Below the pieces are notes generated by a model. That model did not search any database. It saw only the letters and a list, made by a program, of their open reading frames with translations, and was not told where the DNA came from. Positions 380 to 60,900 of a stretch of 64,000 nt of DNA are shown piece after piece. The stretch's first letter is position 1. Each line of letters begins with the position of its first letter. This DNA comes from Tetradesmus obliquus (Eukaryota; Chlorophyta; Chlorophyceae; Sphaeropleales; Scenedesmaceae): assembly GCA_030272155.1 (NCBI GenBank), contig CP126201.1:3446501-3510500 (forward strand), read 5' to 3'. Made by a program: the position numbers and the translations under genes.

Positions 380-1490
380 GGGTGCGCTGTGATGCCTGCC
401 GATATTGTCTTTGTTGCCGCTTGTTGCGCGTGCGCGTATGTGCCCCGCGCGCCCCCGTGCCAACGCATTTGTCCGCTGTTGTGCACGGCAAGAGCCTGTT
501 ATGTGTAGTGTTTGGGATCACAGGCCGCATGCATTGCATCCAATGCGCTGCTGTTGTGAACGCCGTAGGTAGCAGCCACAGCATCTGCACATCGCTGCAG
601 CAGTGCTGCTGGTGCTGCGGTGGCTGGGCATGTGAATCATCTTTGTTGGCGCCCCATGAGTAGTGTAGTGTCTTTCTCGGCTTGACTTGTTAGGCTGCTA
701 AGTGCTGACTGTGTAGGCCAGCAAAGGGGAGGGTGGGGTGCATTCATTCTGATGGTGGTGTATGGGGTGTGTAGCAGCAGTGTACCTATCCTGAGCGCGT
801 GTTCAGAGCACGCATGCCTTGTGAACTGTACAGTATTGTGTACGATACAATTTTTCTTCTTGCATTCTGCAGCCTCCCTGTCATGGAGCTAGCCTAAGTG
901 TCTGCTGGTTGATTTTCCGCTCAAACCAGTCGTGAAAGCACGCATCATCGTGGCATGACATCACAGGACGTGATAATCTGCTCTGATGAGCAGTAGGGCT
1001 ATGTATAGGCAGCACACTGAAAGCACTATCCGAAGTTGTGTTATTGATGCTGATGAAATCCTTCTTGGTGCGTGTGGAGCGCCCGCTGCACGTTTCATGT
1101 TCCCATACATGTGTGCATGTTGTGGGCGCCTGGTGTCCGTTGCAGAAGCTGCAGTTGCAGCTGCACAGCCAGGATCATGTTGCTGTGGTGTTGTGTGTTT
1201 GCAGCAAACATACCAAGTGTAACATGCCGCACGATCATGTCAACTTGCTGTGGAGTTTCTGCCTTGATTTGACCCATCCCACTGGGACCTGTGGACTGCT
1301 GAGCAGTGAAGGCAGCAGCAAACACAGCCGGCTGTAGAACCCCGTTGCAGTTAACATTTGGAAGATGGCGGCGCTCGACCAACACAACACCGAAACTGCT
1401 ACGGCTTCAAACATGACTACTGCAGTGTTCGCCTTTGCCTCAATGGCGCAACAAGCAAACCTCAACATAACAGCAGCAAACCAGGCGCCT
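380..1490. other. Convergent 3' flanks, no gene seen
   Basis: No open frame here resembles a protein. The left part, to about 1300, is T+G-rich on the plus strand, as expected for the 3' UTR and downstream flank of the protease gene. The right part becomes C+A-rich, as for the end of a minus-strand unit. In particular, no RRM-coding exon can be found on the minus strand, although the gene at 1723-3596 would need one. Confidence 0.5.
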
Positions 1491-1745
1491 GCTCACCTTA
1501 AGCTCGAACCACCCCTGGCTTAGTAACACGCTCTGCAGCCCCCATAACAGCAGGACGGTCGAACCAGCCCTCTGCCCCAACAGCGCAACAACCACACTGA
1601 AACACCGCCTGTTCACCTTGAGCTCGAACCAGCCTTCTGTTGGGTTGTAGGGGAGGGGGGGGGGTCAAAATCAACAGCGCAACAACTGAACCGCAACAGC
1701 AGCAAACAATGCGCCAGCTCACCTTGAGCTCGAACCAACCCTTGG
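1490..1745 (-). repeat. Tandem copies of the last Tat-SF1-like exon end and donor
   Basis: The sense sequence GGTTCGAGCTCAAG|GTGAG (GWFELK plus donor) lies at about 1723-1740. Degenerate copies sit at about 1612-1637 and 1495-1515, a spacing of about 105-115 bp. Each copy keeps a usable GT donor. They lie in what would be the next intron. Confidence 0.75.
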
Positions 1746-1813
1746 GCTCCTCAGCCTCCTCCAACTTGCTGCCAGCTGCAGCTGCAGCAGCACCCTCAGC
1801 GCCAGCATCCCCT

Positions 1814-1849
<36 letters not shown>

Positions 1850-3596
1850 GCAGCAGCAGCAGCAGCAGCCCCCAAATAAGCAGTCATTGAGCATGTTGGC
1901 ACATGCAGCCCACTGGGAGTCTAGTTCCGTGTCAACACACTGTGACAGTGTCAGTGCATAAAAATGTCTCATTGAGGCATAAAATTAGCCAGGCTGCATG
2001 CATGCGGCGCTAGTGGACTCGCGGTGTGCCTAGCTGTTGAGGCAGCCGTGCCTACACAACAGTTGATGCGGTGCTGAATGGTTCACCTGCTGCCTCGCCA
2101 GCAGCAGCTGCTGCAGACCCCTTGGCTTTCTTGGCTTTGCCCTGCGCGCTGTCCTTGTCAGCAGCGCGCTGTGCAGCAGATGTAGCACGGCAGGCAAGAA
2201 CAGGAGGAGGATACAGCAGCAGAAAGCGCTGAGCAACACAGGCAGGCGGCTGCGAACGCCCAGCACACCGGACTTGCACATGCTTTGGGACATCATTGTC
2301 ATGTTGTCACACTCCTGCACCACAGCCCATGTCCCCTGCAGCACCTCAGCCCCCTGTCTCATGCATGCTGCTTATTATGCCCTGATCGCCTCCCTGCATG
2401 CAATGCACATGCAGCACAACTTCCCAGGCCTCAGCATCACATGCATTCAACCAACGGCCTTACCTTGCCTTCTCCTTTCCCTTCCAGCGCTGCTGCTGCT
2501 GCCTCCTCTGCTGCACGCGCTGCTGCCAGCGTAGGAATGACTTCTTCCTCCGCCACAAAAGTCATTGCCTCCATATCATAGTCATGCTGCTGCTGCGCTG
2601 CTGCTGCTGCTGCATCTGCTGCATCTGCCTCTGCAGCAGGGACATACTTTCGAAGCTTGCGATCCCATCTGTACATCGTGCCATCATCATCTTCAAACTC
2701 TAGCTCCTCTGGGGTTGCTGCTCTGTCTGCTGCGCCGTCTGCTGCTGCTGGGTCGGCGTCTGGCGCTGTGTCATCAGCTGCACCCGCCTCTACTGCTGCT
2801 ATTGCGTTTTTGAACACATCTAGGGCGTCTGATGGCTTGCCTGTGAGCACCACTGCATGGTGCGGGTGTGCATGGCTGGGGCTGCTGAGGCTGCAGCAAG
2901 CGAGGCACAAGGCAGGGGCAGGTGTCGATGATCAGTCAGAAGTGCTGATGCAACCGCAGCGCTACGCGTGCGTGCACATCAGACAATGCAGTTAAGCCAC
3001 ATTTGAGTGCCTGCATGTGCAGCTGTGCGAGCTGAGCATGCAAGCGGGCTGCGCAGCTGCAGACATTTGCATAGAATGCAGGCAGTACAGATTGCTACAA
3101 CATGCTTCAGGTGCTGTCATTGTACTGCATCTGAACAGCGCCTTGCTCAACAAGTCTCACATCAGCATAAGCTGCCATGACACTCACCCGGCCGTAGCTC
3201 CTGCTGCTGCTGCCGCTGCTGCTGCTGCAGCTTCGCCCGCTGCTGCTGGTGCTGCTGCTGCTGCTGCCGCGCTTGCTCTATGCTGCTGCAAAGCCTTGAG
3301 CACAGGCTCAAGCTCAGGCACTTCTGAAAGCTTGTCCCAAGACGGCTTGCCTTCCTTCCAGAACACCTGCACCTCGCTCACAAGCCCAGATGCAGCATAG
3401 CCTGCAGCAGCAGCGTGAGCAGCTGTCAGCAGTAGTGCAGCAAGGTGCACTCGCAGTGACGTGGCAGGCAGAACATCAGAGGGCCGGTACAGTTTGCTTC
3501 TAGGCTATTACCTGAGAGATCTGCAATGCTGTATGGGCCCACGGGCTGCGCTTTCGGATCGAGCGTGAACCAGCAGCGCTCCTCAGGTGCTGTCAT
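1723..3596 (-). CDS. GYF-domain / Tat-SF1-like splicing factor, N-terminal part only
   Basis: Five exons can be threaded in frame on the minus strand: 3596-3512, 3401-3188, about 2840/2870-2464, 2168-2087 and 1811-1723. The start is the ATG at 3596 (MTAPEERCWFTLD). Exons 1-2 encode a GYF-like fold (WFTLDPKAQPVGPYSIADL, then GLVSEVQVFWKEG). Exon 3 has the acidic DDDGTMYRWDRKLRKYVP block typical of Tat-SF1/CUS2 homologues, U2 snRNP-associated RNA-binding proteins. Exons 4-5 are Lys/Ala-rich and end GWFELK, the point where plant Tat-SF1 proteins continue into RRM1. After that donor no RRM exon exists in the window, and the exon end is re-copied twice downstream. The gene is therefore 3'-truncated, continues beyond the window across the protease gene, or is misassembled. 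The acceptor of exon 3 is uncertain. Confidence 0.6.
1812..1870 (-). repeat. CTG microsatellite abutting a 3' splice site
   Basis: About 18 CTG units, with one CCG, run directly into the CAG acceptor of the exon starting at 1811. In this transcript orientation the run would occupy the pyrimidine-tract position. Confidence 0.8.
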
Positions 3597-4049
3597 CGCT
3601 GCCGATGCATACAATTGCAGTTATTAGCTTGGAACTATATTTATAACCGTTTCATTTTGTTGGGCACTGAACGCCGGAAACTACAGCAGACATAAGTGCA
3701 GGAATTTGAACAGCAGCTTGTTTGTTTTTTTAAAGCCCTGTCCTTCGAGGACTCTAGTCACAACAGCACGCGCATTACAGGTGGATGGGTTGCATACTGA
3801 CCAGGTTGAGGGGCACAAGCTACCCGTTCACTCCTTTGGCTGCATGCAGTTCAGAGTCCAGTGTTGCAGCCAGCAGTCCGGTCACAACTTCAAGGCCACT
3901 GCAAGTGGTCACAGATGCGCAAAAACGGATCTGGTGGTATTATGGTACACATGCAAGATATTCGCATTGCTAACGTGTTTAAAGTTTCATGCAGAGTTGT
4001 TTGTATGCACCGTGCATGTTGGCCACAAAACATCCGACCTTCCACCTGA

Positions 4050-7000
4050 CTAGGCTGGTGAGGGGTCCCCATGCTGGGCTCTGCTGCTGCTATTGCTGCT
4101 TACTTCCTGCTGCTGCTCCCGGAACCAGCGTGCTAATAGGTTCCCTTGCTGCTGCTGCTGTGCTACACTGTCGGACTGCTGCTGGTACGCCACCCTCTGC
4201 AACATCCGCTGCTGAGGGGCCGGCGCCGGCTGCAGCAACGGCTGCTGCTGCTGCTGCTGGGCTGCCTCCTGCTGCTTCTGTGCAGGCAGCACCTGTGGCT
4301 CCTTGTTTTCCCGTAGCCGCACAATGTGGTGGCCATCCTGAGTGATCTCAAGCACCTGCAGTGAGGCAGCAGCGCGGGCACAAAGTCCGCATTCACAATG
4401 TGTAGCATGTCATGCCAGCACAGACAGCACACATTCAAGATGACACATGCGGCATGCAGACTTACGAATAGGCTGCAAGTTGGAGATTTGGGTGAATTTT
4501 GCAAAAATGCAAAATGAAAAGACTGTACTGTACTGCACTCCACGCATGCAAACGCATGTGCTGCTTGAGTCATGTGCTACTTGAGCGCTGCGTGACACCC
4601 TGTCAAGACGTCTACATGGCACATAGTGCAGCGCACAAACGCTGTTTGTTTTTGCTGTGTGCAGGCCAACTGGGTTTCAGCGCCGCACCTGCACCTCCCC
4701 GTTACCGCAGCCTGCTGACAGCCCCACGTCAACGCGCAGCACCCTGCCCCCGCAGGCTCCGTTGATGCCGCGGTCCTGGATGGTGTGCCCCACCTGAACA
4801 GAAGTAAGACAGACATGGTCAGCAATATGATGATGCTATGATGCATATGATATGAACGTAGCGATGTGGAAACGATGGTAGGGTGCATGCGTCACAAGGG
4901 GTGGTGCGTAGCATTCAAGGTGGCGGACGTTCTGCATGTAATTGCGGATATCTTGCACACAGATGGTAAGCCTGGGTTTTGTTGGAAGAGCATGAGCAAG
5001 CAGGGTGTTGTTGACATGGAAAACGCAGCACATAACATGATGTAGTATGGCAAGGCAAAACAGGCGTTCCTGACACGTGGCTGCCACTCACCACCATGCG
5101 CTGCGCGCCCGGCAGCGACTCCAGCACCTGCTGCAGCTTGTCACAGTCGCAGCGATCCTCGTCACGCGCAGAGTAGTCCCTGCAGGAGCACCAGGCAGCA
5201 GCAGCGTGCAGCCACGTTACGCCAGCGCTACATTGTGAGAGAGCAATTCCTGGACAAATAAGGTGAACCTGCAACAGTAACGCAGCTCATACCACTCGCA
5301 CACCGGCATTCAAGGGACAGCAGGAAGCAGCAGAAGGATGCGTGCAGACAAAGTCAAGTGCTTCCATGCTTCCACGAAGAAGTTCGAGTGTAACAGCAGC
5401 CAATACAACTCAACTGATGCGACAAACCCACCACGGCACAGACCAGCAGCACCTGCAACTGCCTCTGCAGTGTTCAGCCACCGCAGCAGCAGCCATCCGA
5501 CACACATGTCATATTGCATAAAATCAAGCACCACCCACCTGGCCCACACCACAGCATCAGCACCCCGCAGGAACTCCGGCGGTGGCAGCCGCTTCCCGCT
5601 GCTGCTGCTGCTGCTGCTGCTGCCGGCTGGCTTGCCCATCAGCCAATCCCGCGTCTCCCTGTTGATGCGTTCAAGCCCATACTCCACATGTGAGGGCAGC
5701 ACCCCGCCGTGCACAAACAGCGTGCTGCCGACTTGCAGGACAGTGGGGTGCGGCGCGAAGAACCTGCGGGTGATGGGGCCACCTGTGAAATCCGCAGCAG
5801 CGTTGCAGGGAGCACCAAGTGAGAAAGGATTATGCAGACTATATATATAATGCGCCTGCGGCAGCTGCGGCAGCAGTGGAATGGAAAATGACTGCAGCTG
5901 TTTGCACACAAAACAACCGGACTAATCTTGTCCTACAGACAGCCTCTTGCAAACATCTTGCAGAGTATGCGGCAGGGGTCCCTCAGCACCGGCAAGCAGG
6001 CAGCAGCTATCTCTCGCAACACCAGCATACACCACCCTGCAGACAAGCAAGCAGAAATGCACCCGAGCACCCAAGCCTGGCTTGCCACCACCCACCTGGC
6101 CGCAGCGCTGCTTCCCGCATGGGGTTGTACTGCTTTGAGCTGCGCCCGCTGCTGCTGCCAGGTGCCGGCGTGTCAGGCACGCTGGCTGCATCGATGGATG
6201 CTGCTGCTGCCGCTGCTGTGTCGCTGCAGCTGCTGCACTTTGACTTGAGGCGCTGCCCAAACTGGTGCCAGCGCTTCCAGGCAGCCATCTCCAGGTCAGC
6301 ACCTGTCGGCAGCAGGTTTACAATGCGTTGCATGCTGTTTCATTCAACCAGCAGATCCATAGTTTCAGCCAGTGCAACCAACAGGCTAGCATGCAGGGGG
6401 ATACAGAAGGGCTACGCAGTTGCATGCAGGAACAGCTGGCATACTCAAGTGCAGGGTCACATGCTCACACAATGTGCCAGCAGAAACCCACACCAACGGA
6501 ATGGCCCAGAGGCTGGCATCATTCTGGATGCTACAAATGTCAAGAAATGCCCCACCTGCTGTCGCGTATCTGAAGTTGCCGCCCACGTTCATGGTCTCAT
6601 GGTTGCCGTTGAGCACGTGCAGAGCGCCGCCTGCTGCTTGGGCCTGGCGCTGCAGCCGCTCCAGCAGGAACAGCAGCTTGATCTCCTGATCTCCACGGTC
6701 CAGGATGTCGCCAACCTGCGGCACATGGCAACAGCCACAACTAACAGATTATACAGACAGTCAATGACATGACAGTGTGGCAGCCGCTCCAGCAGGAACA
6801 GCAGCTTGATCTCCTGATCACCACGGTCCAAGATGTCACCAACCTGCACCAACCACCAATGACCAAAAGATCAGAAGCGTAGTAATCAAGCAACCCAAGC
6901 ATAGCTGGGGTGCCCGCGGTTGATGACACAACAGTGTGATAGCCGCTTGAGCAGGAACAGCAGCCTGATCTCCTGATCATCCCCATCACGGATGTTGCCG

Positions 7001-8405
7001 AATTGTGAAACAAGGCAGTATGTGACGTGTGTCGTATAACTAAATAGTGAGCAATTGACAATGGTCCCCATAAGCTGTACAACACACCAACCAGCATATT
7101 ATCAGTACACGCAATCACTGCACACTGTTAGAACCGTCCCTGTTTCTGCGCACCTGCACACACACGGCGTCGCCGCCGCTCCACTGGCCCTTGTGGTCAA
7201 TCAGCCCAGCCAGCCGAAATGCACGCAGTGCCTGAGTGGCAGCAGCAGCAGCAGCAGCAGCAGCACGCGCGAGATGATCTACAGGCATGGCAGATCAAAT
7301 AACTATGCCCTCCACTGCTTCATTTGCTGGTGTTGTGCACAGCTGCCACGTGGCCTCTTCTGCTGGAACCTCCCGTCCATCCTGCTGTTTGCGCAACTGC
7401 CGCTGCGGCTGATTGTGCTAATGATGGTGCTGCTGCCGGTGCTAGTGCCGATGTTGCGCTGGTGCTGCTGCCATGCCACACCACGCCATGTCACCTTTGA
7501 CAGGTCTCCGTGCAGGTCTCCGATAGCCACCAGGCGCTTTGCTGCTGGAAGCCGCAGAGGCGGCAGCTCCTTGGGCTGCAGCCACACACACAGAACAACA
7601 CGAAGTTCAGCACACACAAGCTTGTGAGCTTGCATTGCTGCCGTGCTTGCGGGTGGTGCACAGCTGATGGCAGCATGCGTGCCGTGGTGCCGCCCCAGCA
7701 GCTGTTGCTGGCATCAGCTGCAGCACTGCACATGCAGGCGCTGGTGCAAACACCTGAAGGAATTTGCTGCCTACAGCGGACTGGCCATAGCAGCTTGCAA
7801 AGAAGCCAACTGTTGCTTGCAGGACGCCATATGCAGCTGGCACCTGATGCGCCTCCCCATGCAACATGGCATTTGCAGCCGGTATGCCTCAACGAGTGTT
7901 GCAACACACCCTGAACACGCCTATGTGCAAGCCGTGCTGCCAGGAGACAAGCCCACTAGCTGTGGTGACTGCAACTGCATGCGTGTTGAGTGAAGCTGCT
8001 GTGCTGTCGCCCATGACCGCATCTGATGAGATGCATGCAGTTCTGCAACCCTAGCAGTTCAAAGTGTCCTGCAAGCCCCTGCTGCAGCACCCTAACACGC
8101 TCCAGTCAACGGTCAAACAAGAAGACATCTCACCTCTGGATCAGGGTCCGCAATGCATGAACCAGTGTAGGCTGTATCAACCACATGGTCCACAAAGTTG
8201 GCAAACATCTGCAGGCCAACAAGCACACGGCATGCACAGCAGCTGTCAGAGGACATGCTGCGGATATGTCACTGTTTGTGGCAGGTTGAATTCAGTTGCT
8301 GAAGCCACGGACCTGTGGAAACTGCGCCTCACAGAAGCTCGCAGGTGCTGCTGTGTCTGCTGCTGCTGCTCCCCATGTCCCCATCAGGGACGATAGCAGT
8401 CCCAT
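4050..8405 (-). CDS. Shewanella-like protein phosphatase (SLP, PPP-type metallophosphatase)
   Basis: Ten exons join in frame to about 478 residues: 8405-8313, 8208-8134, 7575-7495, 7231-7154, 6715-6556, 6302-6096, 5782-5539, 5179-5092, 4793-4689 and 4355-4050. The metallophosphatase motifs appear in order: GDLHGD, GDILDRGDQE, GNHE, LFVHGG and a final GHT. The last of these precedes a loop, RVLRVDVGLSAG, typical of SLP phosphatases, which are bacterial-like Ser/Thr or Tyr phosphatases of plants, algae and protists that use two metal ions. An Ala/Ser/Gly-rich insert (exon 6), a poly-Ser linker (exon 7) and a Gln-rich tail look like trinucleotide expansions. The chosen start is the first in-frame ATG (MGLLSSLMGTWG). 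No clear chloroplast transit peptide is seen, so SLP1 versus SLP2 location is open. It is divergent from the eL27 gene. TGTAA lies at 3777-3781 (minus). Confidence 0.88.
6640..7006 (-). repeat. Three copies of the SLP GDILDRG exon start
   Basis: The genuine exon starts at 6715 and encodes VGDILDRGDQEIKLLFLLE. Two truncated copies of its first 65-70 bp, each with a remnant of the preceding CAG acceptor, lie upstream in the intron at 6781-6848 and 6940-7006. The nearer is very similar; the farther has decayed and its acceptor is weakened. Confidence 0.85.
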
Positions 8406-8749
8406 GGCGACCACCAGCGGCAGTCAGCGATATGTTGATGCTGGGCTAACAATGATCCGCTGGACGGCGTGAGTGCACCAACGTGCTGGTGACTTCACAA
8501 GGTCACAAGCGCAGGCAGGGATGACGGGTCAGAAGTGGGGAGTCAGGCTGCAGCTGAGCACTAAGTTTGACTAAGCATTTGTGGAAAAGGTGACGATATC
8601 AGCTGTGTGGCTCAGTGATGCTCGCATTTTGAAGCCCTTAAAGCTCAACCCCACGCGGTGGCCAACTTGCACAAGAAAGCCTCTGCGCCCGTCTCGCCCT
8701 CCCTCTTTGCAGCAGACAGTAAGCAGATCACGTTCTGCTGCTGATAAAA
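8406..8749. promoter_or_regulatory. Head-to-head intergenic region of SLP and eL27
   Basis: Only about 344 bp separate the two divergent start codons, so the interval probably holds both core promoters. No confident TATA box or other named element was recognised; an AT-richer stretch precedes the eL27 ATG. The assignment rests on geometry alone. Confidence 0.45.
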
Positions 8750-11335
8750 ATGGTGAAGTTCCTGAAGGTGAGCAACGGCGGCAGTGCTGCTCCCTCCCTA
8801 GGCGGCAGCAGCAGGCTGCAGAGCCCTGTGCTGATTATTATTATATCTCCTGCAGCCTGGGAAGGTGGTGATCCTTCTGTCCGGCAAGTATGCCGGCAAG
8901 AAGGCAGTCATCGTGAAGAACCACGACGATGGCACCTCTACTAGGGGCTACGGCCACGCTCTGGTGTGCGGCCTGGCAAAGGAGCCACGCAAGGTGAGGC
9001 CTTGAGGCTTTTGGTTGCTTGCAGGGGCGCCTGGCAGCCCCACAGCAGCACTGGCAGCAGCAGCAGCAAGGCCAGCAGCAGCAGGCACAGCCATGCTGGA
9101 GCTCTGCACGGGGGCAGTGCGTGCTGGATCAGCGCTGCGAGCTGCTTCGTATCATGCTGAGCTGGAAGCAGCTGCAGGGCATCCGCTGGAGCAGGGCGTG
9201 GTGCAGCAGCAGTTCAGCGGTGCTGTGCAGGCTGCTGTGAGCCAAACATCCACCACCCAGGCTGTTGGAACTGGCGACAGCAGCACTGGCAGCAGCAAGC
9301 AGCTGTGTTGCCTCGTGAACTAAGCATCATGGAAGGATGACTTTGCTTAGGGCAGAAGCGCCAGCAACGACAGCAGTGGCATCAGCAGCACCAGCACCAG
9401 TGATTGCAGTGTTGTGGGCTATCACCGGATATCCAGTGTCTTTGACACAGCAACAGCTTGCAGGCACGAGCTTGACATGGCAGCTTCCATGCCGAGCCAG
9501 CACTGTGCTTCTGGAGCAAGTGTTTGTGCTGGCACAAGCGGCAGCACCAGCAGCAGCAGCAGCGCAAGCTACAGATTTAAACAGCACTGGCCTCAGCAGT
9601 GGCAGAGAGCAGCCGGCAAGGAAACGAGCAGTTGCAGCAGCAGCAACAGCAGCCGTGGCAGTAGCCAGCAAGAGCGTTGTAAACGCTTGCAGTGCCTTTG
9701 GGCCCAGGGCTCTGCCGTGCTGCTGTGGAGCGTTTGGCAGCTGCAGTGCATGATTTGTCGACTTTTGTCGGCTTCTTTGCCGTCGCAGTAGACGCGTGCC
9801 GCTTAGTGCGTGGGCGTTGCACTTGTTGCCAATAGGATCTGCCGCCAGCGATCAGTTGATGCGCTGACCTGACAATCTGAGCAACCGCCCATATGTCCAC
9901 AACACTGGCAGCTGCCACGCTGCAGGTCACAAAATCGGCTCAACACTCCGCCTGCCGCATTACTCACACCATGCATCATTTATGCTTGGCAGTCTCTTGC
10001 TTCCTGCCACTAATGGCATGGTTGTTGCGCACATGCAGGTGACCAGATCATGCTCACATGCATGTGCCTCACCACTGCCCACCCTGCTGTCTGCCTGCCT
10101 GCCTCCTCTGCCAGGTGACCAAGCGCACCACCGCCAAGGTGCAGGCCCGCCGCAGCAGCGTGAAGACGTTCACAAAGGTGGTCAACTACAACCACATCAT
10201 GCCCACGCGCTACACGCTGGACATCGACCTGAAGGGAGTGGTCACCGCTGAGGCGCTGGAGAACAGCAGCAAGCGCACAGACGCAAACAAGGTGCGGCAG
10301 GGTGCGATGGCTTGATTGGTTGATTGCATTATGATGAAGGTGCGGTAGGGAAGCATGAGACGGCGCAGCTGTGCTGGCTGCTGGGCTGCGGGGTGCTGGG
10401 TAGATGAGAACAGCAGCAAGCGCACAGATGCAAACAAGGTGCGGCACGCGAAACATGAGATGCAGCCGCTGTGCTAGCTGCGGGGTGACTGGGAGCAAGG
10501 AAGCAGGCAGCAGCTGCAGGTTGTGGCAGCAAGGCAGTGACCTGGCCTGGACAGTCAGGGGCTGTAGGGAAACAGCTGCACAGGCGGCGGACGCTTTGCA
10601 ATATGAGCAGCAGCAGCGGCAGCAGCAGCAGCAGCAGTTACACGGCAGAAGGTCTGGTGCAGGGGCAAGGGCTACCGTTGCAGGAGCTGCCTGCTCAGGG
10701 CTGCTATGCAGCAGCAGCACCAGCACCAGCAGCAGCTGTTTGTGTGGCACAATGTTAGCCGTACTGCTGCAGCCTTCAGGGCCGCAGATGTTTGCAGCCT
10801 GGGTGCAGCCAGCAGCGGCACAGGCTGACAGGGAGCGGGGCAGCTGCAAGCAGGCAGGAGCACGCTTGTGTTGGGTGCCTACCATGACCTCTTGCTTCAC
10901 ATTCGTGCATAATATTCACTTGCAGCGGCGGTTTTGACCAAACAGTGCATTATATACTAAACAGTGCATTATATACCAGCAGCGCCATATGCAAGCGTAA
11001 CAACGTGCATGCATGCCTAGGAGAGAATGCCACCACAATGTAAAATGACGAATTTTAGACAAAGCCAGGATGCCGAAGCACGCTGTGTTTGCAGGCTATC
11101 TGCAGGCAGCCAAGCTTGTTCTCCCTTGTCAGTCAGCACGCTTTCTCTGCCACAAACCACAAGCCGTGCTGGGGAGTGAGGACATAACAGTGCACCTGCT
11201 CGCAGTAGTATTTACTGTCTCTTACTGTCTCTGTGGCTCTGCCGCTGTCGTGTGCTGCAGCAAGCGAAGGGACTTTTCGAGGAGAAGTTCAAGAGCGGCA
11301 AGAACCGCTGGTTCTTCACCAAGCTCAGGTTCTGA
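8750..11335 (+). CDS. RPL27: 60S ribosomal protein eL27
   Basis: Four exons (8750-8767, 8856-8993, 10115-10291, 11261-11335) give exactly 135 residues, the usual length of plant eL27. The start MVKFLK, joined to [18 protein letters not shown], is the conserved N-terminal KOW-type region. The end [12 protein letters not shown] is the family's C-terminus. All junctions are GT/AG and in frame. The protein is a structural component of the large cytosolic ribosomal subunit. The exons show sharp codon bias (AAG, CTG, GTC). Introns are unusually long for so small a gene (about 1.1 kb and 1.0 kb), and intron 3 contains re-copied pieces of exon 3. The 3' UTR is short, with TGTAA 60 bases after the stop. 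Confidence 0.97.
10250..10490 (+). repeat. Duplicated eL27 exon 3 end and intron start
   Basis: The exon end GAACAGCAGCAAGCGCACAG, followed by GCAAACAAG|GTGCGGCA at 10261-10297, recurs almost unchanged at 10407-10445 inside intron 3. The following intron bases (GTGCGG, then a run resembling GAAACATGAGA) also recur, and a weaker partial copy lies near 10335-10390. The donor is preserved in the copy. Confidence 0.85.
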
Positions 11336-11394
11336 GCTGGTGCCATGCACGGCGTGTTTGGGCTGTGCCGGGGCCCAACGTTTGCTGCTAGCTG

Positions 11395-11399
11395 TGTAA
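11395..11399 (+). terminator. TGTAA polyadenylation signal of eL27
   Basis: TGTAA is the standard poly(A) signal of chlorophycean algae. It lies 60 bases beyond the eL27 stop codon, within the expected distance. Confidence 0.6.
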
Positions 11400-13892: not shown

Positions 13893-13900
13893 TTACACGA
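13750..13900. repeat. Degenerate short repeats at the SAD copy 1 stop codon
   Basis: Units resembling GCAGCAG-CTTACAC-(A)GACATCACGTG recur about four times. The desaturase stop codon and a TGTAA motif (13822-13826, minus) fall inside them, so the repeats multiply the stop/poly(A) neighbourhood. Confidence 0.5.
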
Positions 13901-22269: not shown

Positions 22270-22310
<41 letters not shown>

Positions 22311-38537: not shown

Positions 38538-38571
<34 letters not shown>

Positions 38572-41500
38572 GTCTCACCTTGTACATGGACTGTGCCATC
38601 ACACCTAACACGCGACAAAAGCAGTAGATAGAGCGGCGGCAGCAGCAGCAGCAGCAGCAGCAGCAACATTGTGATGAGTACACTAGACAAAGAAGTAGGC
38701 AAAGGTGCAGGCACACACATAGTATGCTTCAAACTGTGAACCGAGCAGCACACAGACACAACGAGCAGCAACACAGACGAACGCATCAAGGAACTGCATA
38801 CTTCTGCACAGCAGCACGCTCGCACCTGTCAGCAGGCTCATGAGCACTGTGCCCATGGCAAACTGGTACAGCAGCAGCACACCCCCCCCCCCAAAAAAAC
38901 ACCACCCAAGCATCCATTATACATTCAAACAAACAAGAGAGCCGCACCTGTCAGCAGGCTCATCAGCACTGTGCCCATGGCAAACTGGTACAGCAGCGAC
39001 AGCACGATGGCTGCCTCCGGGTTGCTGCTGCCCAGCATGATGTCCAGGTCCACACCCCCAAGGGCGTAGGTGAACATGGTCAGCATGCTGTGCCCAACGT
39101 CGCTGAATTGCTGCAGGGCAGCAACGCACAGCAGCAAGCAGGCAGGGCATTTTGGAAAGGATGGTCAGCATGCTGTAACCCACGTGGTTGAGTTGCTATG
39201 GTGCAGCAAGCATTCGCTGACAAACGCGCACATCTGAACAGCAGGGCAAGAGGGCAGGGGGCGTGAGCAGCATTGAGCGCGTTGCTGCTTATATCCAGGT
39301 CCACACCGCCCAGGGCATACGTGAACATGGTGAGCCTGCTGTGCCCCACGTCGCTGAATTGCTGGAGGAATGACAACAAAGCAAACAGCCAGCAGGCAGG
39401 GCATGCATGGCAACATGGTCAGCATGCTGCGGCGCGCGCTGTTGGATCACTGCACGTTGGCCCTGACAAGCGCACGGTAAGGCACAGCACACAGCAGCAA
39501 CAAGGTGGGCGATTGAGCAACAGTGCGCAGCACAAGTTGCGCCCGGGCCCCATCCCATCTTACAGCAACAGGATATGTAGGCTTGAAAAGCTCTCACCTC
39601 GTGCTCCTGGTCTTTCCGGAAGAGCACGCAGTAGGCGCATGCGAAGCCCCACATCATCATCAGCAGGTACAGCAGGTACATGCGGATGTCCACCACCACG
39701 CGCTGCATGGACTCGATGATGCTGAAGCTGCTGCTGCCGCCAAACACCCTGCACAGAGCAATGGCAGCATAGACAGCAAACTCAGTGTTGCAAGGTGAGG
39801 GCTGAGTGTTCAATCAATGCTGAAGCTGCTGCGGCCGCCAAACAGGCGCAGCATAGGCACAAAAGTACAAGGTGAAGTTCGAGCCTGAACCCAGCAGCAC
39901 GCACTGACAAGCAGCATCTCATGCCCAGCCACCAACTTGCCAAGCAATCAGCAGTGGCAGTGGAAGCCCCGCCACACCTGCTGAAGGGGTTTGAGCCTGA
40001 ACCATAGCAGCACACTGAAAAGCATCATTGGAGGCCAAGGTGAACCCAGTATGGCATAAGCAGTGATAACAACAATCGCGCCGCACCTGCTGAAGTAGTT
40101 GAGCGTGAACCATAGCAGCACGCACCGGAAGCCAGTGTTACGACCACCTGTCACGGTTACAGCAAAACCCACTTGGCCGCACCTGCTGAAGTAGTTGAGC
40201 CTGAACCACAGCAGCACGCACTGCAAAGCAGCATCTAAAACCAAGGCAACACCAGCTCGACATGACATAAGCAGTTGTATGCAAACCCCATTGGCCGCAC
40301 CTGCTGAAGTAGTTGAGCCTGAACCACAGCAGCACACACTGAAAAGCAGCATCTGAGGCCAAGGTAAACCCCATATGGCATCAGCAAGAATACTCAAAAC
40401 CATGCCGCACCTGCTGAAGTAGTTGGGCCTGAACCACAGCAGCACGCACTGAAAAGCAGCATATGAGGCCAAGCTGAACCCGGTATGGCATAAGCAAGGA
40501 TAATCACAATCCTGCCGCACCTGCTGAAGTAGTTGAGCCTGAACCACAGCAGCACGCACTGGAAGGCCACCAGCACGCTCAGCCAGCCGCTCTCCAGGTG
40601 GATGCGCCCCAGGTGCAGCGCGGTGATGCCAGCCTGCATTGCAACCAGGCAGTGCAATGCAACGGTTTATGCAAACAACACATGTAGATGTTCTTCCTTT
40701 CTATTGCCAGCGCGACTCCAGGTGGATGCGCCCCAGGTGCAGCGCGGCGATGCGCACGGCTATATTGTCAATGAAATGCAAGTTCACCGTTGTATCTAAA
40801 CCAAACACACAGGCTCACCTGCAGCGAGTAGGTGAGCACGTCCAGCGCGTTCCAGAGGCTGAGCCAGCCGCCCGCATACGCCTGCAGGCTGCCCAGCTCG
40901 ATGACCACAAAGGGCAGCATGGCGGCCAGCGCCAGGCACTCACACACCACTGTGATGATGCCCCTGGGGGTGAGCAGCAGCTGCGCCAGCGAGAGTGAGG
41001 TGTCCTCATCCTGTGGTGATGAAGCGGCAGTCGAGGCACAGGCAACAGATGCATGTGAGGTGCGGCCAACCACAATGCTGTTGGGTGCGAGCAGCAGCTG
41101 CGACAGCGACACTGAGGTATCCTCATCCTGCGCGCACCAGAAGCACAGGCACAGGCGAGAAAGAAGAGGCAACAAAAGCGTGTAAGGTGCAGCTAGTGAT
41201 GATGCTGCTATGGGTGGTCAACAGCTGCGCCAGAGACACTGAGCAATTCTCATCCTGCAGAGAACAACGGGTAAAGAAAGGTGATGCTGTGGAAGGAATG
41301 GATTGAAAATAGGAGGAGAGCGGGTGACGAAGAGAGAAGAGATGACGTGTGTGGCGCCACTGAAGCATGCTCATGCATGCCGGCTGATGCTCGTTCATGT
41401 GCGTTGTTGCACACAGCCTGCTGCGCATGTTGCCCTGATGAAGTTCACACTCTGCTGTGATCAGTCAGCAAAGTTCTCACCTGGAAGACCAGCATGAAGA

Positions 41501-42655: not shown

Positions 42656-42689
<34 letters not shown>

Positions 42690-44976: not shown

Positions 44977-51958
<6,982 letters not shown>

Positions 51959-52607: not shown

Positions 52608-54785
52608 ATGCAGCACAGCAGCAGCCCAAGCAGCAGGCACTGCAGCGCAGCAGCTGTTAGCAGGCGCCGCTGCCGCAGGCTTGCTGCTTTGCCGCCGCTG
52701 GCAATGATCAACGTTGACTTTGCCAGTCCTTCTTTGGTGCTTGGCATCACCTTGATTGGCTGCGGCATCGCGCTGCTGCAGGTGCGCTGGGTGCACGCCA
52801 TTTGTTGCTGTGGTGATGGTTGTTAGGGCAGCTGGGCATGGTGCGGCATGCAAGTAGGTTTGCCGTGTGGCAGCTCAGCTGGCAGGTGACACGGTATGGC
52901 GGCCCACCTTCAGCTTTACCTGACGTCCAGCAGTCGACCTGTGCATCTGCTGTCGACAGTTATTGCTCCGCTTGTGGAAGCTGTCTTAGCACATAATCCT
53001 TCAATAGCTAGAGCAGGTGCATGTACTCTACTGGAATTCAATTCAGCAGGTTCAGGGAACATGACTTTCTTTGCCTGCTTGCGGGTTACATGCAGCTTGT
53101 GGATACGGGCTGTGCAGGCATTCTCAGAATCTGCATGGCAAGTCCCTGCCTTCTCATTCCATTGCGTGCTACCCATTTGTTGTTGTCATGCTGCTGCTGT
53201 GGCAGGTGCGCAACGTGCAGCGTGAGGTGTCGCGTGATGCAGACATTGTGGTGGCTGCCATGATCTCCATTGTTGGCAGCACCCTCATCTTCCAGGGCTG
53301 GCGCCTGGACCCGCTGCTGCTGCTGTGCCAGGTGCGTTACTTCAGCTTGTCTTTAACCTCAGCTCGCTCGTGCACAAGACACAAACTTCAATTGCTATGT
53401 GTTTCACCACCAGTGCAAGGCATGCCATTCCAAAGCAGATGTTTGCTAGGAGGCTGGGTGGAGCTTGTTGATGTAGGGACAGGTCAAATTGCTGCATGCC
53501 TGTTGCATGTGGTCAGGCGCTGCATGTCAGGCGCTTGCACCTGCTGGCGTGCTTTGATGCTCAGCTGCCGGCAATCACATGCAGAGCTCTGTGCTGTCTG
53601 TCTAGAAGTGTACAATTGCATCCGGGCTGATCTGCTTCTGCTGCTGCTGCTGCCGGCCAGGCGCTGACCACCTCTGTGGCCTTCTGGTACGGCTTGGAGA
53701 CGTTCAAGCTGCGGGGGCAGATGGCGGAGGAGGTACGCTCGATTACCAATACGTCATCATTGGACCTACTAGTGTGGTGCTGTGAAGCACCCTGTATAGT
53801 TGCATGCAGTTCGGTGACTGTTGTTGGAGCCTGAGTGGGTCAGGATGGGTCAGGATGCTGAGCCTTGCACGCGCACCTGTTGCATGCCCTTTTGTGTGCT
53901 TGAGCTTCCTGGAAACCCATCACCGCTGCCGTTGCTGTTGCTGCTGCCGCTGCTGCTGCTGCTGCTGCTGCTGCTGTGTAGGAGGACCAGATTGCGGGCC
54001 AGCTGCCGCCCCCAGAGGGCTTCAACCAGCCCAGCCAAATGACCCAGAACATGAACAGCGACCCTTACGCACAAGCCAGCAGCAGCAGCTTCCTGCCGCC
54101 TGCAGCAGACAGGCAGGTGCCGCCTTGGGGCATGCAGCAGCAGCAGCAGCAGCCTGGGCTAGACAGTGGAGCCAGCCGGTGGGGTGTGCCACCTCGAGCA
54201 GAGCAGCCGCCATATGGGAGCTACTTTGGGCAGCAGCAGCAGCAGCCGATGCGGCAACCGGAGGGTGCATTTGCAGGCTACGAAGATCCACTGATGCAGC
54301 AGCAGCGGCTGCAGCAGCAGCAGCAGTATGGTAGTTTGCCGCCTGGCATGTTGGGTGATGCAAGCTTTGGCAGCAGTGGCAGCAGCGGCATGTTCCCTGG
54401 GCAGCAGCAGCAGTTTGGGCAGCAGCAGCTACCCCAGCAGCAGCAGCAGCCGTTTGGTGCGCCTGGCGGTTACCAGGACCCTGGTTGGTATGCTGGCAGC
54501 TTTGACCAGCCGCCGTTTGGTGCTGCTGCTGGCAGTTATCCTGGCGGGACGAGTGGCCTGCCTCCAGATGCAGCAGCAGCAGCAGCAGCTGGGCAGTATA
54601 TGGGCTTGCCGCCTGTGCTGGGTGCTGGTGCTGGGTACCCTCCGCTAGATGGCAGTTCGCTGCTGCCGCTGCCGCCGGGCGCTGCAGAGCAGCAGCAGCA
54701 GCCACCGCGGGGTGTGCAGCCGCCGCCGCAGCAGCAGCAGCCGGGAGGAAGGGCAGCATATGAGCGGGTAGATGATTGGGAGTGA
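52608..54785 (+). CDS. ycf66: Nucleus-encoded Ycf66-like thylakoid protein with Q/G/P-rich tail
   Basis: Four exons (52608-52781, 53206-53331, 53661-53732, 53982-54785) give about 391 residues. The chosen ATG gives a Ser/Arg-rich leader of about 33 residues (MQHSSSPSSRHCSAAAVSRR) consistent with plastid import; the conserved core could also start at MINVDF (52707). The core has two or three membrane segments: NVDFASPSLVLGITLIGCGI, then SRDADIVVAAMISIVGSTLI with FQGWRLDP, then TSVAFWYGLETFKLR. These match Ycf66 of cyanobacteria and plastid genomes, a protein linked to photosynthesis whose function is not settled. The last exon adds about 260 low-complexity Gln/Gly/Pro residues ending YERVDDWE, far longer than the usual family tail. 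It is divergent from the RecQ gene. Confidence 0.85.
52778..53211 (+). repeat. Ycf66 intron 1 flanked by a 10-bp direct repeat
   Basis: GCAGGTGCGC occurs exactly at the donor (52778-52787) and at the acceptor (53202-53211). Such AGGT-containing direct repeats are what a tandem duplication that gives birth to an intron would leave. Confidence 0.6.
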
Positions 54786-55265
54786 GCTGTCAGGTCGGGG
54801 TTTTGCCTTCATTTTACGTGTGCATGCAGTTGCTTTGTACGCTGCTGATGGTTGCTGTCCAACACAGAGCTGTGCTGGCCTGCTGTTTATTTTGTTTACA
54901 GCGGGCGCACATCAATTATCATGTTTCATGTATTCAAAATGTGCCACACGGACGTCGAGGTGTGTGCAGCAAAGGGGTGATGCTGCAGTAGCATGGTACC
55001 CATGATCGTACTGTTGGTTGGCCAAGGCTTGGAGTCAGCTGGCCAGGGCCACGCATTGGACACTGCTGGGCGTCCCAGTCACCGCGCAGTTTGTTGTACA
55101 CTTGAGCCGACATCACAGACGTGTTGCACGCATTGGCATGGGTGTGCATGTCGTGTATGTGTGCGTGTGTATGTGGACATGGTATGGTCAGTATGGGCTC
55201 AGATGCCTGCCTTTGAGAGGCAGCGCGTTGCACCGGCTTTGTCACTCTGCCATTCTCTGTGCCAT

Positions 55266-55342
55266 TATCAGAACAACCCTAACCTTACCTGTATTGGCAC
55301 CGGCACGGTGCCATGGGAGGCCAGGATAGGGTTGTTCTGATA
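55266..55342. repeat. Inverted repeat with perfect 16-bp arms
   Basis: TATCAGAACAACCCTA (55266-55281) is repeated as TAGGGTTGTTCTGATA (55327-55342). The 45-bp centre holds a smaller palindrome, GGCACC/GGTGCC, and further partial complementarity. It could be a 3' UTR hairpin or a very small inverted-repeat element; no target-site duplication was evident. Confidence 0.85.
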
Positions 55343-56236
55343 GACAGGCAAGGAGTATGGTGGAGTGCTAGGCCTGTTTGTGCTGTTTTTGTGCTGCTTT
55401 CCTGCAATGGCATGGCTGAAGCCACCCAACTCGTTTTCAACGCTGATTGTGTATCTGGGTGTGAGTGGCAGGCAGGTAGGCTAGACACAGCAGCGAGGCC
55501 GTGCTGCACGTGCCACTGTGTGTTGAGGGTGTCAATTTGTTACCAGGGGGAGCAAAACCCTACTGGTTGACCTGAAGCAGCAACAGCTGCTGCTGCAGAG
55601 TCAGCGCTGGCTCTCCTGTCCCTCACATGCAAGCAGCTTGTCAGCTCACCTTCATCTGCAGCCCCACGCCTACATTGTCACCAGCTAGTGCATGCAGTAT
55701 ACGCTTACATACAATCATAAGAGTGGCAGGAACGACATTACAAGCGTCTGCTGAATGCAACATACAACCTGGACAAGCAGCAGTGATGCAGAAAATGCCA
55801 TGACATGCTGTGCACTGTGTACCACCCAATCGTGCTGGCGTACCACACGTAGTATGAAACCATGCATGAAGCCGTACCAACTGTAGGTTTGATCGCTGCT
55901 GTGCCAGCAGAGGTTTTAATGCCTCACCGCGCACACCACCTGTCCACCAACCCACACATCGGAGTGCCAGGAGACTTTGGCGGGGTCTTCTGGCTCAGCA
56001 TTGCTTGAAGGTGCGCAGCTGTGCATGACCAGCGTGCTACGGCATCCTGGCTTTGTCTAGAATTCGTCACTTTACATGTTGCGTGCACACTCCCCACCAT
56101 CCGCCCTATGCAGGGCCTCCTGTCTCCCGTGTGCTGCCAACAGTGCAGCAAACGCACTTCCCCACACACCCCTCCTCCACAGCCAATGCTGCTCATACAA
56201 CCCATAACCAATAATCAAAAAACCGCCCCTACATGC

Positions 56237-56282
56237 GTGCACACACACGCACACGCACACGCGCACACACACACACACACAC
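56237..56282. repeat. (AC)n microsatellite
   Basis: Near-continuous alternating AC/GC dinucleotides, in the CA-rich 3' flank of the permease gene. Confidence 0.85.
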
Positions 56283-57847
56283 GAGTTGTTCATGGACTGC
56301 AGCTCGCACAGCTCAAACAGCTTATGACCACCGCCGCTCGCAACCTGTTTGCTTCGCTGCACATGCGCCAGCCTTGCACACACATCTTCCCACAAACACA
56401 TAATACACACACATCGCAGCTAGCACCATACCCCCCACCGCAGCAAGGCTGCCACGTCTCATAACTCCCAGCCCCCCCTTCATCGTACATGCAACGTCGC
56501 GCGTCTCCCTTGTACATACTGTGTTGGTACAGGTCCATGTCTTTGTCCCAACCAGCATCGATGCAACACGTAGCACATGTAGTAGTAAAAATAGCTGGCA
56601 ATGCATGCACACCCTCACACAAGAGCGCAGACACACTCTTCCATCCTCATTTCACCACCACCCGACACACACCGCCCTGCCAAATTAACCCTTTAGCTCA
56701 TGATGGTACCAACGTGCAGCGTACTCACAACACATGATAAGCCGGCATCATACCAGCTGCATCACAGCCCAAGCAACGCGTCGACATCAACAAACAGAGT
56801 GCTCGCCAGCCACCTGAATGCAACTCTACCAAGTGCAACTCTACCAAGTGTGAAACCTTCTATACACAAGTGCCACTGGCATACATTGATAGTAATAATA
56901 GCACCCAAACAGCATATAACACTGCCCACTGATGCAGGCACAATTTGACAAAACGCGGAGCGCATACTAAAGCAGAAACATCAGCAAGAGACACTTTGCA
57001 GCAGGAGTCATGCGCCATGAGGAGTCACGGCCGGCCGCGCTTACTACCGTCGACAGCAGCAGCAGTCCTCTTCCTGTTGCATCAAACCATGCCAGCGCCG
57101 CAAGTCAGCGCTGCAGCAACACAGCATGTCTCGCTTCATAGATGTGCCACCACTTCAACATGTGCCAAGGTCAGCAAATAGAGTCAAAAACTCCCCCTTG
57201 GAGGGAGCACACCACATTAACATACTGCAAGCTGAATCTTCAACATCATCGCATGTAAAGGCCCAGAGCTGACTAGAATTCAGCAAAGCCACTGCTATAA
57301 GCAGGCATTGCAATCCTACAGTCAAAACCACACGGCAGCACGCCTATTAGCGCTAGCCACCAGCGATCAAAAAGTCAGCAGACACGGCCATTGCATCAAT
57401 AAAAGCGTAGAATTAGCAATGGTGCGCACACGGTGCCGCGGCTGAATGCAACGACCTCACTAATCACAGTCGCAACTGCCACCATAGTGGTAGACGATCG
57501 CAAAAGGAAGTAGTTTGGTGCTGGTTGTAAACGCTGGTTGTAACAAACACGCAGCGCACGCACTTTGCGCACGCTGGAAGCAAAGTTGCATTGCAAGCTC
57601 CATCACGTTTAATAGATACGTGCAAATGCACACCACCCCCGCCACCTCTTCAGTCGCCATCCACTGCCAGCGCCTACAAGCGCACCTCATAGCGCAATGT
57701 AGCAGCTCACACCCTAGCTTGCAATATACATAGCAGCAGACTGCGGAGGCCAGCATCTACAAGCAAACTTTGCAGCCGTCAGCTCCGCCTGCAAAGATGC
57801 AAAGGCAAAGGAGAATCTCCCACTGCCATCCAACCTTCACACCACTT

Positions 57848-57970
57848 CAGCTGCAAAGATGCGGTACGTCGCAGACGCCGTGCTGATGCCGTACATACAG
57901 CTGTCGAGCTGCGAGTGCAATCAAGCTGCAAAGATGCGGTACGTTGAGGAGGCCTTAATGATGCCGTACA
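57848..57970 (-). repeat. Duplicated C-terminal coding end of the permease
   Basis: The coding end GTACGGCATC...ACGTACCGCATCTTTGCAGC at 57922-57970 is repeated at 57848-57895, 74 bp downstream. The copy reads YGISTASATYRIFAAE in the equivalent frame but lacks the stop at that point. Confidence 0.85.
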
Positions 57971-60900
57971 GCGCCCCAATCGTGCCCAGGGTTCCCATGA
58001 TGCCCGTGATGATGACCAGGAACCAGTTGACCAGCCATTCCTTGCCCCACTTAGTGGGCTGCTTGTACAGCAGCCACAGCAGCGGCGGCAGCAGGAAGGT
58101 GGTGGGGGTGATGGCAATGGCGCCAAACAGGCCCTGCAGGCAGGGAAGGAAGTCAAAACAACACAAGAAAAGTTTGTCAGTTGCAATCGTGCGCACATCT
58201 GACAACCCTTAACCTTGTCTCATCCTTGTCGATGTCACATCGAAGGCACCAGCTGCACATGACACAACGTCAGGGCACTCTACATCCACTGCTCGCCGCC
58301 ACCAGCACTTGGAAGTTGCTGCAATTGCAAGTGGCAGTCACACTACTCCTGGGAGCTGGCATGCATGTGTCCTACTCGCGTCATTGCAACCGTCAGTACT
58401 GACTCAATCAACACTCTGCAGCAACACTCCGCTCACCATGCGGCAGCCGAAGATTGGGACGAGCAGCCCCACCACAGTCACACCAACCACCAGCGACATG
58501 CATCTGTTATTTTCAAAACTCTAAGCTGCCAGCCACGCTGTCCACTCACCATGAGTGAGCCGAAGAAGGGGATGAGCAGCCCCACCACAATCACGCCCAC
58601 ACTCTCAAATGAAAAGAAACAATACAAGTCAAGATACAATCAAACAGCAGCTCATCATGAGGGAGCCGAAGAAGGGGATGAGCCGCCCCACCACAATCAC
58701 GCCCGCACTTTCAAATGAAAAGTAACAATACAAGTCAAGATACGAATCAAACAGAAGCTCACCATGAGTGAGCCGAAGAGGGGGATGAGCAGCCCGACCA
58801 CTGTCACGCCCATACTTTCAAATGAAAAAGTAACAATACAAGACAAGATACAAATCAAACAGTCAGCTCACCATGAGTGAGCCGAAGAAGGGGATGAGCA
58901 GTCCCACCACAGTCACGCCCACCACCAGCGACATGCGCAGCAGCGTCTGCACGATAGGGTTGACTGTGCCAAAGCGTGTGCGGCGAGACAGCGAGGCCTC
59001 GCACATGATGAACACCGGGTTGATGTACACCTGGTAGGCGGCAGCCACGTGCACCACGACAAACATGTCTGCGGCAGCAGCGGCAGCAGCAGCAGCAACA
59101 ACGTCAGCAATACTGAAGGCAGCAGCACCGCGAAGGGGGGCGGGGGCTTGAAAAACTGTTTGCCTGATACAGTGGGTGCAGCGCTGCAACGTCTATAAGG
59201 GCGCACGAATTGCTGCCTCAAGAAGGCTGCAGCTGCTGGTTCAGGTGCCATTCCTGAAACGACCAGGAAATGACATTTGATCCAATCAGCTGCAGCCTTA
59301 AGGCGCCAACATAGACAACCGTCCTACTCCTATTGCATCGAACTTAGCTATGCAACAGTGTATCACCAGCAAGGCAACTAACACATGCTTGTTGAATATG
59401 CACAAGACCCTGGCTGGCACCATCATCAGCTGCGCAGGCTGGTGCAGAATGCTGTGTAACGGACATGTGGACCACCTCTGCCCCTGGCACGTCACAACAC
59501 GCTTTGGCCACATCCAAACGGTAGCAAGCAAGGGCATACACACACACCTGCCATGGCGACCACCCAGCTAGTGGGCCCGTGTGAGAAGGTCAGCAGCACG
59601 TTGTCAGCGACCCCGGTTCCAAAGGCATAGAAGCCCACAATGGCAACCAGGAAGTAGGCCAGCGCAGTCACCACAAAGGTGATGTGCACGCCCTTCTCCA
59701 TGCGAGGGACGGTGGACTTGTGCTGCGCGTTGATGGGCAGCGTGGCTTGGATCTCAAGAGCCACATTGTGGCCACCTGCGCCACCAGCAGCAGCAGCGCA
59801 TGCTCAGCACCTGTGCAGTTCATATCTACTGATTGTTCGGGCGGCATGCCAAGCGCCTGCAGATATGTACATGTGCACGATTTTGACAAAAGGAAAACTG
59901 TATTACGTATCATGAAACCGGCGCAGCTGGCACGACACACAGCCCACCTGGTCCACACAAACACTCACCGTATGCAAACAGCACAGTGGTCACTGCATTA
60001 AAGATGCCCATGGCCCTCTCTACAGGGGTGCGCTCCACTGCCTCGGGTGCGTAGTTGACTGTGCCCTTAGCGGGGTGCACGCGCGCACTCATCACGATGG
60101 CGATGATGCAGTAAGCTACGCTCATCACAGCTCCCAGCAGTGACACCATGCTCAGCTCGTTGAAGCTGGGCAGCTGCAAGCAAGAGCAGCAGCAGCAGCA
60201 GCAGCAGCAGTGAATTCAGTGAAACCCCTGGAAGCCGCTTGCATGCCAATAGCATGCTCTCGCCACCAGCTGTGAAGCAAAGTCGCCGGCAGACACGCCT
60301 CAGGAGCAGCACAGCAGCAACCATAACTGCTGTCCAAACAAGACACGCTTGTTGTGCAGTGCAACTGATCAACTTGATGTGAGCTGAGCCTCACCAGCGA
60401 CAGCATTGCTGCACAGCGCCAAAGATGATGTAGAACTTCCAGCTGTTGACAACAGCAGTAGACCGCCAGCGCAGCAATGCAGCAACAGCATATGAATGCA
60501 TATCAGTGTCACTCACCAGAGACAGCATCAGCTGCACAGCACCAAAGATGATGTAGAAGCTCCAGCGGCCCATTGACAGGTTGGGGTTGATAAAGGTGGC
60601 AAAGGCGCGCAGGCTATCGCCGCCCACCTGCAGCAGCAGCAGCACGCATGATGCACACCATCAAACCATGTCCGGGGACCTAATCTGTTAGCACAGCTGC
60701 GAGAAACATATGAAACACATATGTTTCTGCTACATCTGCTTTATCACACACCAGCAGCAGTACATGCTAGATGGCACGTGGATTCAGATACATAACCTCT
60801 GTGCTCAGCAGCAGCAGCAGCAGCGCCACTCACCACTGTGTATGTGATGGCCACTCCCAGCAGCACGATCAGCTGGAAGGGCAGCAGCACGGCTTTGCCC

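Follow-up and report, generated by a model that had tools for sequence, protein, structure and literature searches.

Why do introns of the green alga Tetradesmus obliquus carry repeated copies of the exon ends that they adjoin, splice site included? The question is raised by a 64-kb stretch of its genome (C11:3446501–3510500, hereafter the window), for which an original prediction had proposed that exon edges, together with their donors or acceptors, recur in the adjoining introns. Such repeats were found at all of the genes that it named. The explanation we favor, with about an even chance of being right, is that small local duplications arise over exon edges, after which the exon, being under constraint, serves as the template from which its copies are refreshed, and the adjoining intron decays.

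The sample comprised 344 kb, namely the window and 280 kb from eight other contigs, or 0.3% of the 104.66-Mb genome (17 contigs). Genes were modeled with a self-written two-strand hidden Markov model gene finder trained on the sample itself, which converged on (C)AG|GTGAG donors and (T)GCAG|G acceptors and predicted 46 genes with 521 introns (median length 241). All splice sites discussed here are predictions of this model, which merged some neighboring genes and called some copies exons. Repeats were collected as ungapped self-matches scoring at least 18 at lags of 30–600, with low complexity masked. This search returned 424 segments, against 3 at lags of 5000–5570 and 5 at 8000–8570. The segments grouped into 164 clusters, an upper count because some arrays contribute more than one cluster, and neighboring clusters are not independent. 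Under a stricter cut, cluster density ranged from 1.4 to 11.5 per 10 kb across the places sampled, and exon-edge copies were present in eight of the nine places. In up to 58 of the 521 predicted introns, the edge of an adjoining exon has an intron-side copy. The number is a maximum because the predictor called some copies exons, as is the case, by reading of the arrays, for about 9 of the 19 window junctions in that list (40090, 40201, 40300, 40410, 49575, 50638, 50893, 58549 and 58604). The copy-bearing introns are unevenly distributed (0/69 in the C2 stretch, 1/69 in C3 and 12/38 in C5). Their median length is 303 compared to 234 for introns without copies, longer introns also giving more room for them, and 14% of predicted intron bases lie within repeat clusters with lags of at least 40, counting copies and spacers and all kinds of cluster.

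A spacing of about 105–115 bp had been proposed for unrelated genes. A preferred spacing does exist, but it is wider: in a search that admitted lags from 40 upward, the nearest intron-side copies lay 83 to 454 nt away, with 36/68 at 90–135 and 48/68 at 152 or less, and the RecQ repeat at 46730–47384 has a longer unit still (Table 1). The shortest lag fell at 90–130 in 64 of the 164 clusters; a second group at 20–30 (18/164) represents ordinary short repeats. The preferred spacing depends on exon involvement, as a shortest lag of 90–135 was seen in 47/83 clusters with an exon or junction versus 7/26 intron–intron clusters, with 11/32 for coding–coding clusters and 6/23 for those with intergenic sequence. 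Lags of 90–135 were distributed 34, 29 and 26 by remainder modulo three, so that they are not confined to multiples of three. Among the few young intron-only pairs is an AT-rich 48-nt intronic repeat at C3:2681–2834 (L016), 100% identical at a lag of 106.

The repeats had also been described as tandem, which applies to a minority. After removal of repeated rows, as for all pair totals of 118, 88, 30 and 26 given here, the aligned part reached at least 0.75 of the offset in 30 of the 118 distinct best pairs and stayed below it in the other 88. Most repeats are thus a copy, an unrelated spacer and a copy, with plain tandem or minisatellite arrays only a minority. Among the 26 pairs that are at least 95% identical, the median ratio of aligned part to offset was 0.44, and 9 were full tandems (0.9 or more). 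For the 46 copy–spacer–copy pairs at offsets of 80–150, the aligned part had a median of 51 nt and the spacer a median of 63.5 nt, with spacer lengths spanning 25 to 106 nt. True tandem arrays occur as well, in the permease gene (58545–58922) and the channel gene (40176–40561).

The claim that repeat units span junctions held up, with 64/134 clusters compared to 44.5 ± 5.4 expected and none of 500 circular shifts of the annotation reaching that number. The excess was 49 versus 29.3 at donors and 38 versus 29.6 at acceptors (4.6% of shifts reached the latter), while pairs with both copies in introns (25 versus 42.6 expected) or both coding (19 versus 27.5 expected) were fewer. This effect is true but modest, and the sharper fact is where homology stops. 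In 43 of the 88 distinct copy–spacer–copy pairs, it covered at least 20 nt of exon and ended 0–12 nt inside the intron, compared to 6.8 ± 2.5 (maximum 15) in 1,000 circular shifts; with repeated rows left in, the count was 46/98 versus 7.6 ± 3.0. The 43 pairs comprise 26 donor and 21 acceptor cases, some being both, and at least one of them (C5:5410–5589) is a coding end mistaken for a donor by the predictor. Among donor records, 37/57 ended 3–11 nt into the intron. The 30 full pairs were not clearly enriched, either for ends at the splice site (5 versus 2.3) or for ends further in (18 versus 15.6).

Beyond the splice site, residual similarity on the intron side exceeded the 95th percentile in 5/26 donor and 4/20 acceptor cases (p = 0.004 and 0.019), compared to 0/26 and 1/21 at the exon-interior end (p = 0.65 and 0.92). 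A weak residue on the intron side and none in the exon interior fits ends that are eroded and not original. Flanking intron exceeded the 95th percentile of unrelated sequence at 28/68 junctions, where about 3 were expected. Copies were also noticed at three gene ends. The copy at C5:5410–5589 (L026) stops ~4 nt past the stop codon, that at window 57849–57970 stops at the last codon and that at C1:22439–22822 (L008) continues ~30 nt beyond the coding end, so that two of the three end at or near the stop codon. Copying is therefore not confined to splice junctions. Two of the three permease places in the original prediction, 58423–58936 and 60390–60566, stand as exon-edge arrays, but at the third (57849–57970) it is the coding end that is copied past the stop codon.

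Sequence differences between exons and copies indicate which partner is constrained. In 53 exon/intronic pairs, some of which are pieces of one array, differences numbered 60/46/152 by codon position, with 141 synonymous and 115 other changes, where random changes of matching kinds would be 26% synonymous. A three-way comparison, made for exons with two intronic copies, gave 4/3/30 by codon position for differences specific to the exon and 57/45/87 for those specific to a copy. The exon is therefore the constrained partner, and most copies decay in a near-neutral manner. The copies range in age from near-identical to decayed, as had been noted, and 106 of 133 binned pairs are less than 95% identical. 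Splice dinucleotides were intact in 54/68 nearest copies versus 782/1020 exonic dinucleotides of the same copies, and this equal survival gives no sign that decoys are selected or purged. The duplicated sites have the appearance of neutral decoys, and 126/168 donor and 116/146 acceptor correspondences were at or above threshold or predicted as sites. No clear enrichment of acceptors was seen before donor-type copies (39 records, p = 0.06), and no enrichment of donors behind acceptor-type copies (32 records, p = 0.56), for which reason we rejected the idea that the copies are whole or mutually exclusive exons.

One sign that copies may be refreshed from their own exon came from a paralog of the window permease (L003), located half a megabase away. 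Three of its exons are equal in length to those of the window gene, and the introns between them are therefore common to both permeases. An array of the paralog's own occupies the corresponding exon edge (lags 114–122). Six sites tell the two exons apart, giving 42 diagnostic cells over 7 intronic copies; the base was that of the copy's own exon in 30, that of the other exon in 6 and neither in 6. Two other edges of the paralog, without a cluster in the window gene, likewise bear donor-type copies (lags 98 and 118). At 19 multi-copy junctions (~15 arrays), the intronic copies were more alike than the adjoining intron in 18, with a mean identity of 0.87 for copies, 0.58 for adjoining intron and 0.42 for unrelated sequence. 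The copies had been picked for their likeness to the exon edge, so that the identity measured for them is raised, and flanks outside the original unit would look unrelated as well. Both hallmarks of concerted evolution are thus seen, likeness within a gene (in one paralog pair) and copies more alike than the sequence next to them. Intron decay alone, with a slowly changing exon and a fast-changing intron, is disfavored since copies that are both intronic still exceed their flanks in likeness.

Protein comparisons support the gene models at several arrays of the window. With a single copy kept, the models match Aa_trans (permease), Ion_trans (channel), Metallophos (PF00149, phosphatase) and eL27, and the RecQ edge TATATHQ falls in a DEAD match and is collinear with solved RecQ helicases when one copy is kept. 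The window permease matches the T. obliquus protein P0001 at 96%, and the paralog, in its own reading, is by eye almost identical to T. obliquus P0002. Where homologous full-length permease proteins span this position, the GSLM|GLFGAI edge, or the sequence equivalent to it, occurs a single time; judging by their source names, some of these proteins appear to come from transcript collections. In these protein-supported cases, the site taken is the one joined to the rest of the exon. At another permease exon, ending at 59969, the homolog P0022, which seems to stem from a transcript collection, runs past FAYG into nonhomologous residues, possibly a retained intron.

We infer that re-copying underlies this pattern. 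In the proposed scheme, short local duplications would arise repeatedly over exon ends in the nuclear genome, the original unit reaching from the last or first ~30–60 nt of an exon across the splice site into the intron. Extra copies would land inside the intron and leave the protein unchanged, because the outermost site, joined to the whole exon, would be the one used. The exon, held constant by selection, would serve as a lasting template, and intronic copies would be re-copied from it or from one another, either by gene conversion or by slipped-strand template switching, the direct repeats lying some 110–125 bp apart. The adjoining intron, unconstrained on either side, would decay to unrelated sequence, so that an exon edge with its splice site, a spacer and again an exon edge with its splice site would remain. 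That homology tends to stop at the splice site favors re-copying, because the constraint on the exon copy stops there. More tentatively, exons in this one algal lineage may be standing templates that rewrite their own edges and splice sites into adjoining introns. If so, exon-to-intron concerted evolution would be a main engine of intron lengthening, and transcripts would be loaded with near-perfect decoy splice sites.

Several observations weigh against re-copying. No re-copying event was observed directly, and the splice sites come from a self-trained predictor that takes some copies for exons. The arrays of the two paralogs may be independent new arrays, for which the same result is expected. 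Pairs reaching at least 13 nt into the intron were mildly enriched (22/88 versus 13.5, reached by 8 of 1,000 shifts), and the splice-site boundary is therefore only a tendency. Intron-flank identity is nearly bimodal, with 3/68 values between 0.6 and 0.75, a distribution that two types of birth event would explain as well as decay does. Some pairs are 96–97% identical without shared intron (at window 38947, 0.97 for the edge and 0.42 for the flank), which would require complete erosion of the intron next to copies that were still being refreshed. By eye, about 10 of the 53 exon/intronic pairs, some of which belong to a single array, have almost exclusively synonymous differences, which is more than neutral copies should show. 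A paralog serving as template for the near-synonymous copies was rejected, as two such arrays have no other match in the genome at the sensitivity of the search.

The same bimodal flanks and high-identity pairs, as well as the exon specificity of the lag preference and the 3–11-nt overhang at donors, suit an alternative in which ~50 nt of exon and the splice site are copied into the intron, ~120 bp away, in one step, through a repair-related or transcription-linked process whose tract ends near the exon–intron border (for example, at breaks, R-loops or paused polymerase). We consider such fresh copying rather unlikely, given that similarity persists above chance on the intron side and not in the exon interior, that flanking introns are recognizably related at many more junctions than expected and that similar ends occur at stop codons, where there is no splice site. 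That the intronic copies are functional, as alternative exons, regulated decoys or stepwise (recursive) splice points, is improbable: although some differ from the exon almost solely at synonymous sites and many keep good splice-site scores, their splice dinucleotides survive no better than others, the partner sites that an exon would need are not clearly enriched, the copy at 60390 is frameshifted and lags are not restricted to multiples of three.

The original prediction had leaned toward classic intron birth through tandem duplication of AGGT-containing exon sequence, and units with AG|GT are indeed repeated beside introns; at C13:5950–6350, the same peptide-coding edge flanks a predicted intron on both sides. 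Nevertheless, the donor-to-acceptor register of such a birth was found among predicted sites in just 0/168 donor and 1/146 acceptor correspondences, and the introns shared between the permease and its paralog also speak against it, making this account very improbable. Of the proposal that duplication enlarges or creates introns, the first half is thus retained, in line with the longer copy-bearing introns: with the birth register nearly absent, the process lengthens introns. We regard insertion of small mobile elements (introners) with long target-site duplications as highly improbable. A copy–spacer–copy layout resembles an insertion between duplicated targets, but two arrays searched whole had no other genome match at that sensitivity, spacer lengths vary fourfold and 44 spacers gave no family signal (median pair score 6.5 versus 8.0 for random intron pieces), the single outlying spacer pair at 50 being probably one pair listed twice. 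An assembly artefact is barely credible, as most binned pairs have diverged by at least 5%, exon-edge copies recur in nearly every place sampled and their ends coincide with splice sites.

Intron growth is less well understood than intron gain or loss. Small tandem duplications can arise through repair of adjacent nicks, and duplications of this type, like those made by polymerase α–primase, are expected to be adjacent full copies without preference for exon edges. Polymerase α–primase action at DNA breaks leads to small tandem duplications (PMC8355091), and either activity could supply the original local duplications of the alga. Among known processes, internal tandem duplication that gives rise to introns comes closest (Hellsten 2011 and Gao & Lynch 2009, cited in PMC3443670 and PMC4974935). 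As in the alga, exon sequence with splice signals is duplicated locally by or in introns, which yields decoy GT/AG pairs. Unlike AGGT-duplication gain, the algal copies match donor with donor or acceptor with acceptor and lengthen introns, and their homology is mostly one-sided and limited to the exon edge, with a spacing near 115 bp and a high density. Human 'intron-breeding' tandem arrays (Zhuo et al. 2007) reportedly involve whole tandem repeats that make new alternatively spliced introns. They also consist of direct repeats with splice signals inside genes, in contrast to the one-sided exon edges, mostly unrelated spacers and occurrence in up to a tenth of the sampled predicted introns in the alga.

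In Cryptococcus, DNA repeat expansion creates introns and multiplies them within the repeat of one gene, for which unequal crossing over, gene conversion and slippage have been suggested (PMC2395259). Repeat expansion there likewise alters gene structure, but the algal case concerns exon edges and many genes. A single recent duplication of an intron–exon segment in potato RdRp gave a new spliced intron (PMC4974935). The unit there also spans an intron–exon border and reuses parental splice signals, unlike the algal copies, which are recurrent, multi-copy and apparently unspliced. Among the matches listed from the open-licence literature, judged by title and the opening of the abstract, none described exon-edge copies in green-algal introns. 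In a comparison of five green algae, T. obliquus had the longest mean intron (462 bp, others 230–302; PMC5966456). With the share of intron bases in clusters and the greater length of array-bearing introns, this makes local duplication with exon templates a candidate cause of its long introns. The arrays are natural tests of splice-site choice, in which real and decoy sites are almost identical over 40–60 nt. They are also a warning for annotation, several copies having been called exons by the self-trained predictor.

Table 1. Repeat arrays in the window and near-synonymous intronic copies on other contigs
Gene or class	Position	Strand	Arrangement	Lags
Tat-SF1-like (name from the original prediction)	1469..1742	-	Donor-type array; exon edge with GTGAGC donor, ending near 1723, and two intronic copies	106, 120, 226
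Calcineurin-like phosphatase ('SLP' in the original prediction)	6652..7017	-	Acceptor-type array; exon edge 6652-6719, copies 6780-6847 and ~6939-7006	128, 159, 287
eL27	10259..10446	+	Donor-type pair; 41-nt copy, 98% identical	147
Ion_trans channel	38821..38982	-	Donor-type pair; intron past donor unrelated	122
Channel	39040..39429	-	Acceptor-type copies	85, 166, 251
Channel	39719..39844	-	Acceptor-type pair	98
Channel	39892..40567	-	Donor-type array; ~7 copies including exon, several with intron part in common too	96-118
Channel	40592..40753	-	Acceptor-type pair	124
Channel	40952..41258	-	Acceptor-type; three copies	117, 127
RecQ	45431..45848	-	Three or more copies	91, 125, 216, 362
RecQ	46398..46563	-	Acceptor-type pair	126
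RecQ	46730..47384	-	Two long copies; true tandem with longer unit	268-273
RecQ	48658..48858	-	Pair, 74 nt	127
RecQ	49506..49834	-	Helicase-motif exon edge (TATATHQ|gtgag) and two intronic copies	91, 136, 227
RecQ	50428..50923	-	Four copies	172, 143, 119
Permease	57849..57970	-	Last codons copied downstream of stop codon; no splice site	75
Permease	58423..58936	-	Exon edge (GSLM|gtgagc) and four intronic copies	106-113
Permease	60390..60566	-	Donor-type pair; copy with 1-nt deletion, 68-nt unrelated spacer	123
Near-synonymous intronic copy	C1:20033-20074 (L008)
Near-synonymous intronic copy	C1:37460-37559 (L009)
Near-synonymous intronic copy	C1:15539-15587 (L007)
Near-synonymous intronic copy	C13:12760-12814 (L033)
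Near-synonymous intronic copy	C5:5176-5243 (L026)

Within the window, the six channel clusters (38821–41258) have neighboring lags of 85–127, and the RecQ repeats (45431–50923) lags of mostly 91–273; the predictor fused the two genes in one model. The near-synonymous intronic copies of Table 1 look as if they are coding now or were formerly. Between 13572 and 24000 lie two neighboring genes, which we take to be desaturase-like, with one exon pair 88% identical. The repeat search found no exon-edge cluster in them, and they are useless for dating; their longer exon-plus-intron stretches align at just 63%. GCA/GCT trinucleotide runs are very frequent throughout the window, of which ~5% was masked as low complexity.

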